NCBI GenBank assembly: GCA_945787325.1
Contig: CALZHP010000027.1
Location: 1-34,229 of the forward strand
DNA from: an uncultured Desulfobulbaceae bacterium
GTDB lineage: Bacteria > Desulfobacterota > Desulfobulbia > Desulfobulbales > BM004
DNA: 34,229 bases
Direction of reading: 5' to 3'
The notes beneath the pieces are model-generated. The model saw only the letters and a program-made list of their open reading frames with translations, was not told the origin of the DNA and ran no database searches. The stretch's first letter is position 1. Every line of letters starts with the position of its first letter. Shown piece after piece: positions 2,932-22,403 of this stretch. The position numbers and the translations under genes were made by a program.

Positions 2932-3121
2932 CACCGGTTATTTTTATTTAAATTCTGACATATCTCCATGTCAGGTGCATTTCTGACTTGAAAAATTTTT
3001 TTGTTATTTTTATACAAAAACAAATATATGAGAGGCATCACCAATATTGCCTTAAGAAAACAGCAATGATATTGTTGTCCATTACATGAATAGAAACTTT
3101 TTAGAAATAAATGGTGATCTC

Positions 3122-5452
3122 ATGTCTGGAAACTTTCTTTTTGTACATATTAACGAATGGGCCGATTCTGATAGCTCCGACGCAATTCCAATCTCCCAGG
3201 GATATATCCTCGCCAATCTCGAGAAACACGGTTATTCCGGCCATATTCTTGGAGATTACAAGAACCGTCCCCTCACGCCCCGCCTTTTCAATACCTGTAT
3301 TCAGCAGCTGAAACCAAAAGCCGTCGGTTTTACAGTCTACGAGGAAAATATCAACAGGGTCCGAGTCTGGGCGCGTTTTGCGAAGATGCTGGACCCGGAG
3401 ATCGTCGTGATTCTTGGTGGTCCGCAGATAACATTTATGCCCGGTGTTGCTTTAGAACAGATGGTAGAGGCGGATATTCTCTGCCGGGGTGATGGTGAAA
3501 CCGTAAGTGCTGAGCTTGCAAATGCTCTGGCCGGGAATAGACCGTTAACTGAAGTCCCCGGCATATGCTGCAGGGAAAACGGCGTTATCGTCGAGACGGA
3601 AAAATCTTTCCGATATGAAAACCTTGATGATCTCCCCTCACCCTATCTGAACGATACCATAGATTGCACAGGTAAAAGCAGGGTGATCATCTTCTCCTCG
3701 AGGGGCTGCGCCTCTTCTTGCACATTCTGCTACACCCCGATGGCAAGCGGCAGAAAAATTCTCTTTCATTCGATTGATCGGATTATTGACGAAATGCGGT
3801 ACCTAAAACGTCAGGACATAAGTGATTTCTGGTTTGCCGATCCGAATTTCGCGCACTCGAGAAAGCGGCTGGGAAACCTTCTTGAAGCCATCATCGATAA
3901 AGTGCCCGGTGTAACTTTCTGGTGCCAGACACGTTATAATCTCGTAGATACCGACCTGCTTGATCTCCTGAAGCGGGCTGGGGCGCATACCATCGCCTTC
4001 GGACTTGAATCGGCCCATGACGCTACACTTAATAGAATCAATAAGGGACTGGATCCGGACAAAATGGCTGGCGCCGTGAAAGCAGCCCGGAACGCGGGCA
4101 TCAATGTCGAACTGTTCTCTCTATTCGGCCTGCCGGGAGAGTCTCTTGAAGATGCTGAAAAAACACTTGATTATGTTAAAAACAATAAAGTTGACGTGGA
4201 CGGAAACTCCATTTCCCAGCAGCTGCATATTTTTTACGGTACGCCGATAAGTGACGAACCTCAGCGCCATGGAATAACCCCGCTGCCTTTCACCAAACCC
4301 GCTTATCAGAGCCTGTGCCGTGATTATAAAACCGACGGCATGAGCGAAGATGAAATCCGCCAAATGGGTTTTCTATGGCGCTTGAACCGCAGGGACTTTG
4401 CGGAAGACATCAAGCATGCCAGAAATTTGTTTACAATCGCCGGCTTTATTAACCGCCATTATGAATATCTCAATCACCGCCCGGAAGCCGGAATGATGCT
4501 TTCCTTGATTTACCTGGAGCTTGACGAACCCGGCCCGGCCGCAAAATGCCTCCTGGCTTTGCAGCAGAACTTCAGCGGACATACTGAAGTAGACACCTTT
4601 CTGAACCGCCCGCTTATAGGTTTTAAAAACAGGAGAAGGGCCATTGCCGGACCGGGCTGCCGGATCATTTTTGACTGCAGAGGCATGCTGGATGGTGCTT
4701 TAGTCCCCGAGACTATATGTTATTACACCATGGCAACTCTGGGAAGCGGGGCTCTCGTTTCTGACTTTGACAGAAATATGTCAGGCATCAAGTGCGGCAG
4801 CGCCACCCAGTTTGAGGTGACTTTTCCGGCCGATTACAGCAACGGCGGCCTAGCCGGGAGGAAAGTTTCATTCCAGGTATATCTGCACCAGGTGTTGGAA
4901 CCTGTTGAGTACAACCTTCTAAAGGATGTCGCACAAAAAACTCCACGAAACAAGTACCGGTTTAATGACCTGTTCAACCTGAAAAAACACAATGAAAATT
5001 TATATTATATGGTGCTGCGCGATTCCATACTGCACAGCCACACCGGCAACCTTCCCCATATGATGGCTCTTTTCAACTTCTACCTGAAACTGGGTTTTAA
5101 GGAAAATGCCCTGGAGCTCGCCTATTCCCTCCCGCATGAACCATCTGTCATGGTTCATGCCGGCCGGGTCCTCCTTGCAAACGATTTCCCCGAAGAGGCT
5201 CTTGAGTTTATGCGCTACGCTGAAGGGACCAGCGCCGAGTTGGAAAATAAGAGAATTGAAGCCCATATAAAATTAAAGCAGTATGAAGAAGCGGAAATGA
5301 TAGGGGCCGACCCTCTTCTTGCCACCAGCCTGCAAACCATGAACCTGCGGGTTAAGCTCGCATCTCTGCGGCAGCTTCCAATCGAGAACTACCTGCGGCG
5401 CGTGGATACCCTGCTTGACAGCCAGGTAAAAATGATGGCCGCAAAAATGTGA
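3122..5452 (+). CDS. B12-binding radical SAM protein with embedded trigger-factor/FKBP-type domain and TPR-like tail
   Basis: A 776-aa protein from the ATG at 3122, chosen because GGTGAT precedes it and the recognisable domain begins at MSGNFLFVH; an in-frame ATG at 3086 adds 12 residues. Residues 1-150 are a cobalamin-binding domain (VVILGGPQ). The radical SAM core carries Cys196, Cys200 and Cys203 (CASSCTFC), then FGLESAHD and LFGLPGES motifs. About 415-505 is helical. Residues 512-596 align with the trigger factor peptidyl-prolyl isomerase domain: RIIFDCRGMLDG, LGSGALVSDFDRNMSGIKCG, then FEVTFPADYSNGGLAGRKVS. The rest looks like TPR helices. Substrate unknown; the extra domain suggests a peptide or protein substrate, which is inference. 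Confidence 0.85.
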   Translation: MSGNFLFVHINEWADSDSSDAIPISQGYILANLEKHGYSGHILGDYKNRPLTPRLFNTCIQQLKPKAVGFTVYEENINRVRVWARFAKMLDPEIVVILGGPQITFMPGVALEQMVEADILCRGDGETVSAELANALAGNRPLTEVPGICCRENGVIVETEKSFRYENLDDLPSPYLNDTIDCTGKSRVIIFSSRGCASSCTFCYTPMASGRKILFHSIDRIIDEMRYLKRQDISDFWFADPNFAHSRKRLGNLLEAIIDKVPGVTFWCQTRYNLVDTDLLDLLKRAGAHTIAFGLESAHDATLNRINKGLDPDKMAGAVKAARNAGINVELFSLFGLPGESLEDAEKTLDYVKNNKVDVDGNSISQQLHIFYGTPISDEPQRHGITPLPFTKPAYQSLCRDYKTDGMSEDEIRQMGFLWRLNRRDFAEDIKHARNLFTIAGFINRHYEYLNHRPEAGMMLSLIYLELDEPGPAAKCLLALQQNFSGHTEVDTFLNRPLIGFKNRRRAIAGPGCRIIFDCRGMLDGALVPETICYYTMATLGSGALVSDFDRNMSGIKCGSATQFEVTFPADYSNGGLAGRKVSFQVYLHQVLEPVEYNLLKDVAQKTPRNKYRFNDLFNLKKHNENLYYMVLRDSILHSHTGNLPHMMALFNFYLKLGFKENALELAYSLPHEPSVMVHAGRVLLANDFPEEALEFMRYAEGTSAELENKRIEAHIKLKQYEEAEMIGADPLLATSLQTMNLRVKLASLRQLPIENYLRRVDTLLDSQVKMMAAKM

Positions 5453-6684: not shown

Positions 6685-7566
6685 ATGAGAAAAATTATCT
6701 GCTGTTTAACTGCCGTTATAATGGTTGCCTGCGCTCCAATAGAAAAAGACTCAACAATTACCAGTGAACATGGAAAAGGAACAGGCTTTCTTCATCCACA
6801 TTATGAAGACAGTCTGTTTCAAATGACAGATGACAACAAATACAGCGTTGAGTTGCTTATAAAAGGTGGCGCGCTATCCGTAGGCAATAATTCCATTGAT
6901 CTAATTATTCACAAAAATGTAGAAGGCAACAGAGATGTTGAAGGTTCCAAAGTTACTTTTGAACAGTGGATGCCGGCAATGGGGCATGGCGTGCTCACAG
7001 AACCGGTTATTACAGAGAGAGGTGCTGGGCTCTACAGTGTCACCAACGCACTTATATCAATGCAGGGTCTATGGGAACTACGAATTACTTTTACTGCCGA
7101 CAACAATGTTCATAGGGTTATCTTTGAATTCCCGGATGTCGGTGTAGTTATGACAGGAAGCGGAATGACCGCCCATCCAACCCATGCCGGAATGCCGGCC
7201 GGCCATATGATGCCACCTGATGATGCCAATATGTCATCATCCATTAAAACTGACAATGGTCTTTTCCAGGCATCATATGAGAGTAAACCTGCAGCAATAC
7301 CTATTAATAAGATCCATACCTGGAATTTGACTTTACTTAACAAAGATGGTGTCCCTGTTAACGATGCTGCAATTACCGTTAAGGGTGAAATGCCTGCCCA
7401 TATGCATGGCTTACCTACAAAACCCATTGTCAAAAAGGGAAATCAGCCGGGAATGTACAAGGCCAATGGTATGAAATTCAACATGCCGGGCTGGTGGATA
7501 ATCCGATTCCAAATCATGGCTGAGGGCAAAAGTGATACGGCAACATTTAATCTCGTAATTCAATAG
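6685..7566 (+). CDS. Lipoprotein with two YtkA/FixH-like domains and a Met/His-rich linker
   Basis: A 293-aa protein with a short signal peptide and a lipobox-like MVAC at Cys16, so probably membrane-anchored outside the cytoplasm. It has two related immunoglobulin-like domains of the YtkA/FixH type: about 50-150 (WMPAMGHG, then GLYSVTN and GLWELRI) and about 190-293 (MPAHMHGLPTKP, then GMYKANG and GWWIIRF). The linker at 156-183 is rich in Met and His (M156, M161, H164, H167, M170, H174, M175, M176, M183), which suggests copper binding. It is followed after seven bases by a MauG/CcpA-type di-heme enzyme, its likely functional partner. The role is inferred, not established. Confidence 0.8.
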   Translation: MRKIICCLTAVIMVACAPIEKDSTITSEHGKGTGFLHPHYEDSLFQMTDDNKYSVELLIKGGALSVGNNSIDLIIHKNVEGNRDVEGSKVTFEQWMPAMGHGVLTEPVITERGAGLYSVTNALISMQGLWELRITFTADNNVHRVIFEFPDVGVVMTGSGMTAHPTHAGMPAGHMMPPDDANMSSSIKTDNGLFQASYESKPAAIPINKIHTWNLTLLNKDGVPVNDAAITVKGEMPAHMHGLPTKPIVKKGNQPGMYKANGMKFNMPGWWIIRFQIMAEGKSDTATFNLVIQ

Positions 7567-7573
7567 GTGACGT

Positions 7574-8827
7574 ATGACACTATTAAGAACTTTATCTATA
7601 AGTTTTGTTCTGGTTATTTTATGGGCCGGACCCTTAAACGCCACGGATGCCCAGACATGGAACGCAAGTGAGATTAGAGCATTGCAATCCCTCTGGATCG
7701 GCTCTCTGCCACCTCTCCCGGATGATCCATCCAATAAATATGCCGATGACTATAAAGCTATCGCTCTCGGAAAAAAGTTGTTTTTTGATGCCAGACTCAG
7801 CGCCAATGGCAAAGTAGCATGTGCCACTTGCCATATCGAGGATAAAAGTTTTACGGACAACCTTCCAGTCGCACATGGAATTGAAGATACGTCAAGAAGA
7901 TCTATGCCACTTGCCGGTATGGCTTACAGTCCATGGCTATTCTGGGACGGTAGAGCCGACAGCCTCTGGGCTCAAGCCCTGGGACCGATAGAAAACCCTG
8001 TAGAGCATGGGATCAGCCGGACAAAATGTGTGCTCCTGGTGAATGAATTCTATCGAAAGGAATATAAGGAAATTTTTGGTGATTTACCGGAAATTAGCAA
8101 TAATGATTTTAATCCTAAAGCAAGTCCGGTAATTGACGATAAAGAAGCTAAAGCCTTGTGGATCTCAATGAGTCCCGACAAGCAGGAATTGATCACCAGG
8201 TTATATGCCAACATTGGCAAATCCATCGGTGCCTTTGTAAGGACAATACAGCCCGGCAAGTCGTCTTTTGACAGATATGCGGAAGCGGTATTTAAGGGCG
8301 ATATGGAAAATATGGAAAAAATCCTGACTGATGACGAAGCCTTCGGACTCAAGCTGTTTATAGGTAAAGCGCAATGCATAAACTGTCATAACGGGCCGCT
8401 CTTTACAAATAATGACTTCCATGACGTTGGGGTGCCCAAAAGACCAAAATTTGACAAAGACCCTGGCAGAGAGCAGGGTATACCACAGGTACTGAGCAAT
8501 GAATTTAACTGCCTTGGTAAATACAGTGATGCTGACCCGGACGAGTGCCTGGAGTTACAGTTCATCGATACAGACGCTGAAAAATACAGAGGCGCCATGA
8601 AAACACCATCCTTGAGAAACGTGGCCGACCGACCACCATATATGCATGCCGGCCAATTTGCTACGCTCAGTGATGTGATGAAATTTTACCAGAAACAGGC
8701 GGCAGGTAAAAGTGGAGCCGACACCGGAAGACCGGATATTGTTCACGGCATTTTAAGCGACAATGATCTTGTGCTGCTTGAAGCTTTCTTAAAAAAACTT
8801 GACGGCCCCATATATTCTGCAAGATAA
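7574..8827 (+). CDS. Di-heme cytochrome c peroxidase family protein (CcpA/MauG-type)
   Basis: A 417-aa protein with a signal peptide (about 1-23) and two c-type heme sites, CATCH at 83-87 and CINCH at 268-272. Between them are the family signatures KKLFFDARLSANG, FWDGRADSLWAQALGPIENP and, near the end, the PPYMHAGQFATL segment. Family members reduce H2O2 (CcpA) or form bis-Fe(IV) oxidants acting on a partner protein (MauG, MbnH). A canonical MbnP partner is not present. Instead the upstream lipoprotein ends seven bases before this start, and the two genes probably share one mRNA. Periplasmic location follows from the c-type hemes. Confidence 0.9.
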   Translation: MTLLRTLSISFVLVILWAGPLNATDAQTWNASEIRALQSLWIGSLPPLPDDPSNKYADDYKAIALGKKLFFDARLSANGKVACATCHIEDKSFTDNLPVAHGIEDTSRRSMPLAGMAYSPWLFWDGRADSLWAQALGPIENPVEHGISRTKCVLLVNEFYRKEYKEIFGDLPEISNNDFNPKASPVIDDKEAKALWISMSPDKQELITRLYANIGKSIGAFVRTIQPGKSSFDRYAEAVFKGDMENMEKILTDDEAFGLKLFIGKAQCINCHNGPLFTNNDFHDVGVPKRPKFDKDPGREQGIPQVLSNEFNCLGKYSDADPDECLELQFIDTDAEKYRGAMKTPSLRNVADRPPYMHAGQFATLSDVMKFYQKQAAGKSGADTGRPDIVHGILSDNDLVLLEAFLKKLDGPIYSAR

Positions 8828-20084: not shown

Positions 20085-22403
20085 ATGGCCTATAATAACA
20101 TCCTCGACAAAATAGGGAACACACCCATTGTTCTTATCAACCGGATGAATCCCATATCAAAAAAAGTCAAAATATATGCCAAGCTAGAGTCATTCAATCC
20201 TGGAGGTTCGGTTAAGGACCGTATCGCGCTTTCCATGATTGAAGACGGCGAAAAAAGCGGTGCCCTCACCAAAGATAAAATAGTTCTTGAGGCAACAAGC
20301 GGTAACACAGGAATCGGACTGGCAATGGTCTGTGCTGTAAAAGGGTATAGGTGCCAGTTAGTCATGCCCGAATCGGCAAGCATAGAACGTCGAAAAATAA
20401 TGGAAGCTTTCGGAGTTGAGATACTTCTGACACCGGCAAAAAAAAGCACTGACGGTGCAATTGAACAGGCTTATGACATGGCACGCGAGCATCCGGACCG
20501 TTACTTTCTTACAGACCAGTTCAACAACGATTCGAATTGGCAGGTTCATGTGCAAACTACTGGACCTGAGATATGGAAGCAGACAAAAGGCAAGGTGACC
20601 GATGTTGTTGCCACACTCGGTACCACAGGTACCGCCATGGGCTTGTGCAAGTATTTTGCAGATAGCCACCCCCATGTCAGGGTCACGGCAGTTGAACCTT
20701 TTCTCGGGCATAAAATCCAGGGACTCAAAAATATGAAGGAGTCCTACAAGCCTGGTATTTTCGACAAATCTCTGCCCTTCAGAATTGTCAACATAAATGA
20801 TGATGAAGGCTTTGAAACATCTAGGCAATTGGCCCGCAACGAAGGACTGTTTGTTGGCATGAGTTCAGGAGCCGCCATGCGTGCAGCAGTGAATAGGGCA
20901 AAAGAACTGGATGAAGGGCTTGTAGTTGTCGTAATACCTGACGGCGGTGAAAAATATCTGAGCACTACCTTGTTCTCACTGGAGAAACCTCCTGAACCAA
21001 AAGCGTCAAAGCTTCGTTTTTTCAATACTATGACAAAAAAAAAGGAGGCGTTTAAACCGCTTTCTGACAAGAAAGTCACCTTTTACGCATGCGGACCTAC
21101 GGCATACGAACACACCAACCTGGCTCACTGCCGCCGGTTTATAGTAGCAGACCTCATTAACCGCGTTCTTCTTGGCAAGGGGTACAATGTCCAGTCATAT
21201 ATGAATTTTACCGACCTTGATGATAACACTATCAATGGTGCGGAAAAAGCAAACAAATCACTTGATGAATTTACTGGCTCCTTTATAAGTGAATTCAAGG
21301 CGGACATGGAATCACTAGGAGTCCTGAAAGCAACAGGCTACCCCAGGGCTTCTCAGCACGTTGAAAAAATGGTCGATATCGCCCATAAACTCATCGACAA
21401 AGGTTACGCCTACGAAACACACGGCTCCATTTACTTTAATATCTCGAAATTCAAAAAGTACGGCAAACTTTCGGGTATTGATCTTGAGAAAATACAAATC
21501 GGCAAAACAGTTGACCTGGACAACTATGATAAAGAAAATCCCGTCGACTTCACTCTTTTGAAGCGTTCAACCTTGGGTGAACTGAAGAGGGGTATTTTTT
21601 ATGTTACCGAGTGGGGCAATGTTAGACCTGGCTGGCATATCGAGTGCGCGGCAATGTCCCGACATTTTCTTGGCGAGACCATGGATATCCACACCAGCGA
21701 GCAGGATCTTATCTTCCCGCACCATGAGAATGAAATAGCCATAGCCGAGGCAGTCACCGGCAAACCTTTGGCTAACTACTGGATGCATAGCGGCTTACTG
21801 CTTGTGGACGGAAAAAAAATGACCGCAAAGCTGAAAAATGTCCTCACACTCCAGAATCTCCTTACTCAGGGATATACAACTCGTGAGGTTCGCTTTCTGA
21901 TGCTGGGAACCCATTACCGGAAGCAACTCAATTTTTCCTATAAAAAACTTGATGCGGCCAGGAAAAATTTGAAGCGTCTCGACGAATTCATCTGTAAACT
22001 CATGTGCCTGCCACCAGGGCTGCCACATCCAAAAGTTGCCACTTATCTTTCCGAAATGGAAGACCGGGTTTTCGCTGCAATTGATGATGACTTGAACATG
22101 TCTCGAGCCATGGGGGCCATATTTGACTTCATTAAAAAAACTAACCCTGTCCTCTCAGAAAGCCTGCTCGATCGTGACCAGAAAAAATACATACTTGAAT
22201 CGTTTGAGAAAATAAATAGCGTATTGAATGTACTGAAACTTGAGAAATGCACCTTGAGCCCTGAAATATGCAAACTTATGCAGGACAGGGAAGAGGCCAG
22301 AAAAAATAAAGACTGGGTGAAGGCCGATGAAGTTCGCGATGAGCTGACCAGGCAGGGTTTCAAGGTTGTTGATACAGCGAAAGGTCCAGTGTGGAGTATG
22401 TAA
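20085..22403 (+). CDS. Cysteine synthase/cysteinyl-tRNA synthetase fusion protein
   Basis: A 772-aa protein. Residues 1-305 are a PLP-dependent O-acetylserine sulfhydrylase (GNTPIVLINRM; Lys44 in GGSVKDR as the PLP lysine; TSGNTGIG; GTTGTAMG), with the IERRKIMEAFG segment of the CysM-type. From about 320 it is a class I cysteinyl-tRNA synthetase: zinc ligand Cys336 (CGPT), GWHIEC and FPHHENE (metal ligands conserved), and the C-terminal helix KDWVKADEVRDELTRQGF. The HIGH motif reads NLAH (345-348) and KMSKS reads KMTAK (578-582), so catalysis may be altered. It would couple Cys formation to tRNA charging; both activities are inferred. Confidence 0.85.
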   Translation: MAYNNILDKIGNTPIVLINRMNPISKKVKIYAKLESFNPGGSVKDRIALSMIEDGEKSGALTKDKIVLEATSGNTGIGLAMVCAVKGYRCQLVMPESASIERRKIMEAFGVEILLTPAKKSTDGAIEQAYDMAREHPDRYFLTDQFNNDSNWQVHVQTTGPEIWKQTKGKVTDVVATLGTTGTAMGLCKYFADSHPHVRVTAVEPFLGHKIQGLKNMKESYKPGIFDKSLPFRIVNINDDEGFETSRQLARNEGLFVGMSSGAAMRAAVNRAKELDEGLVVVVIPDGGEKYLSTTLFSLEKPPEPKASKLRFFNTMTKKKEAFKPLSDKKVTFYACGPTAYEHTNLAHCRRFIVADLINRVLLGKGYNVQSYMNFTDLDDNTINGAEKANKSLDEFTGSFISEFKADMESLGVLKATGYPRASQHVEKMVDIAHKLIDKGYAYETHGSIYFNISKFKKYGKLSGIDLEKIQIGKTVDLDNYDKENPVDFTLLKRSTLGELKRGIFYVTEWGNVRPGWHIECAAMSRHFLGETMDIHTSEQDLIFPHHENEIAIAEAVTGKPLANYWMHSGLLLVDGKKMTAKLKNVLTLQNLLTQGYTTREVRFLMLGTHYRKQLNFSYKKLDAARKNLKRLDEFICKLMCLPPGLPHPKVATYLSEMEDRVFAAIDDDLNMSRAMGAIFDFIKKTNPVLSESLLDRDQKKYILESFEKINSVLNVLKLEKCTLSPEICKLMQDREEARKNKDWVKADEVRDELTRQGFKVVDTAKGPVWSM

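Follow-up and report, generated by a model that had tools for sequence, protein, structure and literature searches.

The window, by which is meant the whole 34,229-nt stretch that was analysed, contains on its forward strand a reading frame of 788 codons (3086-5452) that is open from the ATG at 3086. A start at 3122 (codon 13, MSGNFLF) is common to most homologues and is the likely start of the gene as judged from the alignment; the same start, with a product of 776 amino acids, had been chosen in an earlier sequence-only reading of this DNA. Residue numbers given here follow the 788-amino acid frame, residue n of that reading being n + 12. Full-length homologues are 52-71% identical to the window protein. 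The genome search showed in-frame stops in some relatives, with a stop just 5' of the start codon in one genome (G002) and TAG in three others. The features of the gene are as follows.

3122-5452 (+), coding sequence of the B12-binding radical SAM and trigger-factor-domain protein, 776 amino acids from the conserved start
3176-3517 (+), B12-binding domain, residues 31-144 (Pfam PF02310, E 9.3e-13; 19 of 19 members)
3695-4174 (+), radical SAM core, residues 204-363 (Pfam PF04055, E 7.1e-23; Foldseek)
3707-3730 (+), CX3CX2C cluster motif C208-C212-C215 (invariant in the homologue alignment)
4427-4603 (+), TPR-like helices before the FKBP domain, residues 448-506 (AlphaFold model)
4655-4909 (+), FKBP-fold (trigger factor PPIase) domain, residues 524-608 (TIGR00115, PDB profile search, models, Foldseek and tree)
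4766-4873 (+), stretch with the pocket residues F561, Y584 and F596 (identical across 19 Desulfobulbia members)
4910-4987 (+), connector behind the PPIase domain, residues 609-634 (TIGR00115 match reaches profile position 258)
4994-5446 (+), C-terminal TPR-like helical repeats, residues 637-787 (AlphaFold model; TPR_19 in 15 of 19 members)

Elsewhere on the same strand of the window, a tRNA-Met (882-958) lies inside a spurious ORF (829-1224), and another gene for a B12-binding radical SAM protein, this one ending in a DUF4070 domain (1367-2857), is placed 228 nt upstream of the fused gene; as a candidate partner this second gene was set aside, as it is not beside the fused gene in relatives. 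Downstream, positions 6685-8827 hold a 293-amino acid probable lipoprotein ORF and then a gene for a MauG/MbnH-like di-haem protein. A 772-amino acid ORF at 20085-22403 joins cysteine synthase (residues 7-297) to cysteine--tRNA ligase (310-770), the NCBIfam models cysKM and cysS both scoring above their cut-offs.

Sequence profiles and structural models show the window protein to be a predicted cobalamin-type radical SAM enzyme with a C-terminal half composed of TPR-like helices around a trigger-factor domain. Its domains and CX3CX2C motif place it among the cobalamin-binding (class B) radical SAM enzymes, and the cobalamin-binding radical SAM core described in the sequence-only reading is borne out by the Pfam matches (B12-binding, E 9e-13; Radical_SAM, E 7e-23). 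Across the 19 full-length members the B12-binding and Radical_SAM models match in every case, FKBP_C in 18 (E<=1e-3) and a TPR model in 15, the FKBP segment thus being a discrete domain in the relatives as well. Mean column identity is 0.73 in the FKBP part compared with 0.74-0.76 in the catalytic part. The identities and order of the domains in the earlier reading are correct with one amendment: the TPR-like helices, which it placed only behind the FKBP domain, are indeed present there and also occur in front of it (residues 448-506).

The FKBP_C match is weak in the window protein itself (19.3 bits, cut-off 21.1), and the assignment is carried by other evidence. The NCBIfam trigger factor model TIGR00115 matches residues 526-634 with E 1e-14, and a profile of residues 506-640 from the 19 members, searched against 177,635 PDB sequences, returned seven with E<=0.01, all of them trigger factors (best E 6e-13). 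AlphaFold run on the full-length alignment gave a model with a mean pLDDT of 86, mostly 91-96 over residues 510-609, in which this region adopts an FKBP topology with strands 526-535 and 538-551, helix 559-565 and strands 573-579 and 593-609. In a Foldseek search with the full model, B12 radical SAM enzymes rank first and trigger factors next (best E 4e-7), and the FKBP-TPR proteins FKBP52, FKBP51 and FKBP38 are also matched (E 1e-4 to 7e-4). Folded alone, the segment gives an rmsd of 1.4 A to E. coli trigger factor across 97 columns, with a weaker structural match to FKBP12/13/51/52 and SlyD. The segment profile scores 34-61 bits against the trigger factors of 13 genomes, and 5.8 bits or nothing against the three other FKBPs of the window genome. 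In the tree, the radical-SAM FKBP domains together with the trigger factors are split from those other FKBPs with support of 100/99, and the radical-SAM FKBP domains form one side of a branch supported at 92/94. The homology also extends past the PPIase domain into the connector, trigger factors matching the segment profile to position 126. Profile, structure and tree thus rule out a chance FKBP resemblance, uphold the trigger factor PPIase segment that the sequence-only reading had recognized at its residues 512-596, and point to a segment derived specifically from trigger factor rather than from a generic FKBP. The fused protein carries this PPIase domain and, as judged by its profile alignment, is no trigger factor: the match covers profile positions 154-258 of 410, and the ribosome-binding N-domain and C-terminal arms are absent.

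Residues F561, Y584 and F596, the same in every one of the 19 Desulfobulbia members, align with Phe-198, Tyr-221 and Phe-233 of E. coli trigger factor, which together with Phe-168, Glu-178 and Phe-185 we take to be the prolyl-isomerase pocket residues. Among the same 19 members Phe-168 is replaced by an invariant cysteine (C531), Glu-178 by proline and Phe-185 by a variable, polar residue; the trigger factor of the window host itself also lacks Tyr-221. With three of the aromatic positions kept and the others replaced, binding by the FKBP domain is plausible, whereas prolyl-isomerase activity appears doubtful.

Foldseek matches of the radical SAM core include CysS, TokK, TsrM, MgmA and AprD4. 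The window protein scores far below the cut-off of every named NCBIfam radical SAM family among the matches listed, as distant members do, and it is a member of none of these families. The nearest radical SAM profiles are those of the methylases PhpK and KedN5, of the RiPP enzyme ApyD, of the tetrapyrrole and lipid enzymes BchE and HpnJ and of the dehydratase AprD4; since these mix functions and none is near its cut-off, they weigh against the reading preferred below, in which methylation and a protein substrate are both inferences. The C-methylases CysS and TokK (PDB codes 9n1b and 7kdx) are the best Foldseek matches and share the B12-binding and radical SAM domains, but they act on carrier-bound or small-molecule intermediates and their C-terminal parts are unlike that of the fused protein. 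MgmA (PDB code 9ccb) shares the B12-binding domain and radical SAM core with a similar fold (TM 0.63 by target) and acts on a protein, reportedly in its unfolded state; against the MgmA profile the window protein scores 97 bits compared with a cut-off of 360, and we know of no FKBP or long TPR extension in MgmA. MgmA is a B12 radical SAM enzyme that C-methylates a glutamine of methyl-coenzyme M reductase, and its authors argue that the residue must be reached before folding and that the cleft takes a linear, unfolded peptide (PMC11796369). Trigger factor (TIGR00115; PDB code 1w26) shares the PPIase domain, the connector and the Phe-198/Tyr-221/Phe-233 positions, the differences being that in the fused protein the domain stands behind an enzyme and that the other three pocket residues are replaced. 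The sequence-only reading knew of no characterised enzyme with this order of domains, and in open-licence papers no published enzyme was found that joins a radical SAM core to an FKBP, trigger factor or other peptidyl-prolyl isomerase part.

In the main rival explanation the enzyme would act on a small molecule, lipid or cofactor, and the role of the trigger-factor/TPR part would lie in assembly, stability or docking to a protein complex rather than in substrate recognition. The nearest profiles, among them BchE, HpnJ, a ladderane-type enzyme and AprD4, are in keeping with such a substrate, as is an isomerase pocket that is kept in part. Against this, the FKBP part is conserved about as well as the catalytic part and retains the Phe-198, Tyr-221 and Phe-233 equivalents, and overall we consider this explanation unlikely, though the strongest of the competitors.

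The first scan yielded 19 loci, all of them labelled as Desulfobulbaceae, Desulfocapsa, Desulfobulbus, Desulfurivibrio or undefined Delta-/Proteobacteria MAGs. The C-terminal module is found at strong scores in 23 of 258 Desulfobulbia genomes, spread over 13 genera, and beyond Desulfobulbia in 10 more genomes of the Desulfobacterota phylum sample, in families f31, f70 and f85; the trigger factor profile matches the f31 and f70 fusions with E 7e-20 and 2e-18. A fourth outside family, f39, has a locus (L150) in which the fusion is kept and the FKBP segment is eroded. That this lineage retains the enzyme despite the eroded segment counts against a protein-modifying role and in favor of a small-molecule substrate. 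Loss of the fused gene, as read from the sequences, is visible at two loci: in L113 (genome G018) terminal fragments are all that remains of the gene, and in L055 (genome G013) residues 161-269, including the cysteine motif, are lost in frame with the junction between two VPG(I/V) stretches, although this deletion may be an assembly error.

No neighbour is conserved beside the fused gene across Desulfobulbia genera, and no export gene is conserved near it. Small ORFs, sought by six-frame translation and neighbour clustering over 20-21 loci, are shared no further than within small groups of related loci. An adjacent RiPP precursor was therefore rejected, no widely shared small ORF or neighbour being present over these loci; the sequence-only reading had pointed to synteny with small peptide ORFs in relatives, and none was found. 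With neither a neighbouring gene nor a gene for a precursor peptide conserved, we regard a RiPP encoded beside the enzyme as unlikely. A RiPP maturase could also act on a small precursor from another place in the genome, whose leader the C-terminal half would recognize, and here the RiPP enzyme ApyD (NF050148) is the top NCBIfam profile over the core; its 125 bits compare with a cut-off of 750, no RiPP profile attains its cut-off, and the fused gene lacks the RiPP gene context. In genus g85 of f31 (loci L068-L072) the fused gene is flanked by a YcaO-TPR gene on one side and a DsrC-like gene on the other, and a thrS-like gene, named from sequence, is found a few kb away. The adjoining YcaO gene would suit a RiPP pathway; however, YcaO is near-universal in Desulfobulbia (239 of 258 genomes) and adjoins the fused gene in one genus, and it was rejected as a dedicated partner. 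The fused gene is absent from the YcaO loci examined in carriers. The DsrC-like neighbour, confined to the f31 lineage, was likewise set aside. All told, a RiPP maturase with a distant precursor seems improbable.

The same f31 arrangement, together with the trigger-factor origin, could be read as a link to the ribosome or the nascent chain, the enzyme modifying a ribosomal or translation protein co-translationally in the manner of E. coli YcaO, which thioamidates uL16 (PMC13063428). This is the least probable of the explanations and a distinctly long shot: the ribosome-binding N-domain of trigger factor is missing, the genomic link is based on one genus, and the fused gene is patchy, unlike ribosome maintenance genes. 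In f70 the fused gene is followed on its 3' side by genes for an enoyl-CoA hydratase and an OYE-type reductase, an arrangement that would suit small-molecule metabolism, but no metabolic neighbourhood is common to different lineages. The neighbours in f31 and f70 are weak clues.

Searches with the catalytic half retrieved unfused relatives of about 430 amino acids from several other Desulfobacterota families, with scores as high as those of the fused f70 proteins. In most of the unfused loci examined (sister operon loci L145-L161), the next or next-but-one gene in the same direction encodes a 445-650-amino acid protein with C-terminal TPRs, and the two genes often overlap or lie within about 60 nt of each other. 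The N-terminal part of most of these partners has conserved cysteines in a CX10GX4C ... CX2C pattern resembling SPASM/twitch, a resemblance that also lends something to the RiPP maturase; no Pfam model matches the Cys-motif region of the partners, and Pfam SPASM has no match in the fused protein. In the IQ-TREE phylogeny of the catalytic half, 24 fused and 19 unfused sequences fall on opposite sides of a 100/100 branch, and one genome (G415) holds both forms. What is new here, as read from tree and gene order, is that the enzymatic half has an unfused sister lineage, in which the gene is nearly always followed by a Cys-motif/TPR gene. This operon, for which no name or publication was found, contains the nearest relatives of the catalytic half and differs in having the TPR partner as a separate gene without an FKBP domain. 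Given the fully supported split, the C-terminal half probably took over from a separate substrate-handling partner, and the simplest history would be one fusion in which a TPR/trigger-factor C terminus displaced that partner. The TPR-to-TPR similarity seen in profile comparison is weak (27% probability), too weak to derive the TPRs of the fused protein from the partner protein of the sister enzyme. The pairing of the sister enzyme with a TPR protein is a further point against a small-molecule substrate.

The reading we prefer, and to which we give even chances, is that the fused protein modifies a carbon atom, probably by methylation, in an unfolded or proline-containing stretch of some protein whose gene lies elsewhere. 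Its TPR-like helices and trigger-factor domain would capture such a stretch of the target, be it unfolded, newly made or rich enough in structure to include a proline, and keep it bound, perhaps with a prolyl bond being set, until it reaches the active site of the radical SAM core. There a [4Fe-4S] cluster on C208, C212 and C215 would cleave SAM, the 5'-deoxyadenosyl radical would remove a hydrogen atom, and cobalamin would most likely donate the methyl group that is placed on an unactivated carbon. The sister lineage would divide this work between the stand-alone radical SAM enzyme and the separate Cys-motif/TPR protein. Such radical SAM chemistry, with methyl transfer as the likeliest reaction, on a protein that the C-terminal half keeps unfolded would agree with the trigger-factor origin, the kept pocket aromatics, the sister TPR partner and relatives that modify proteins, MgmA among them; the peptide or unfolded-protein substrate suggested in the sequence-only reading is compatible with the same evidence, and the absence of a conserved precursor or neighbour fits a target encoded elsewhere. 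A built-in chaperone domain would also fit the MgmA-type need to reach a residue before folding. The more specific version, a chaperone-coupled radical enzyme whose trigger-factor domain holds an unfolded or nascent protein while a later-buried carbon is modified before folding, is somewhat less probable and is offered tentatively.

Protein-modifying B12 radical SAM enzymes, among them MgmA and Mmp10, target residues that are later buried, and a chaperone/isomerase domain built into the enzyme itself would directly answer how such residues are reached before folding. The system can also be approached through the unfused sister pair, and since the fused gene is distributed patchily, carriers can be compared with non-carriers. 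If the chaperone-coupled version is true, the fused protein would represent a new system of protein modification in Desulfobacterota of the sulfur cycle, and relatives would have it in a two-gene version.
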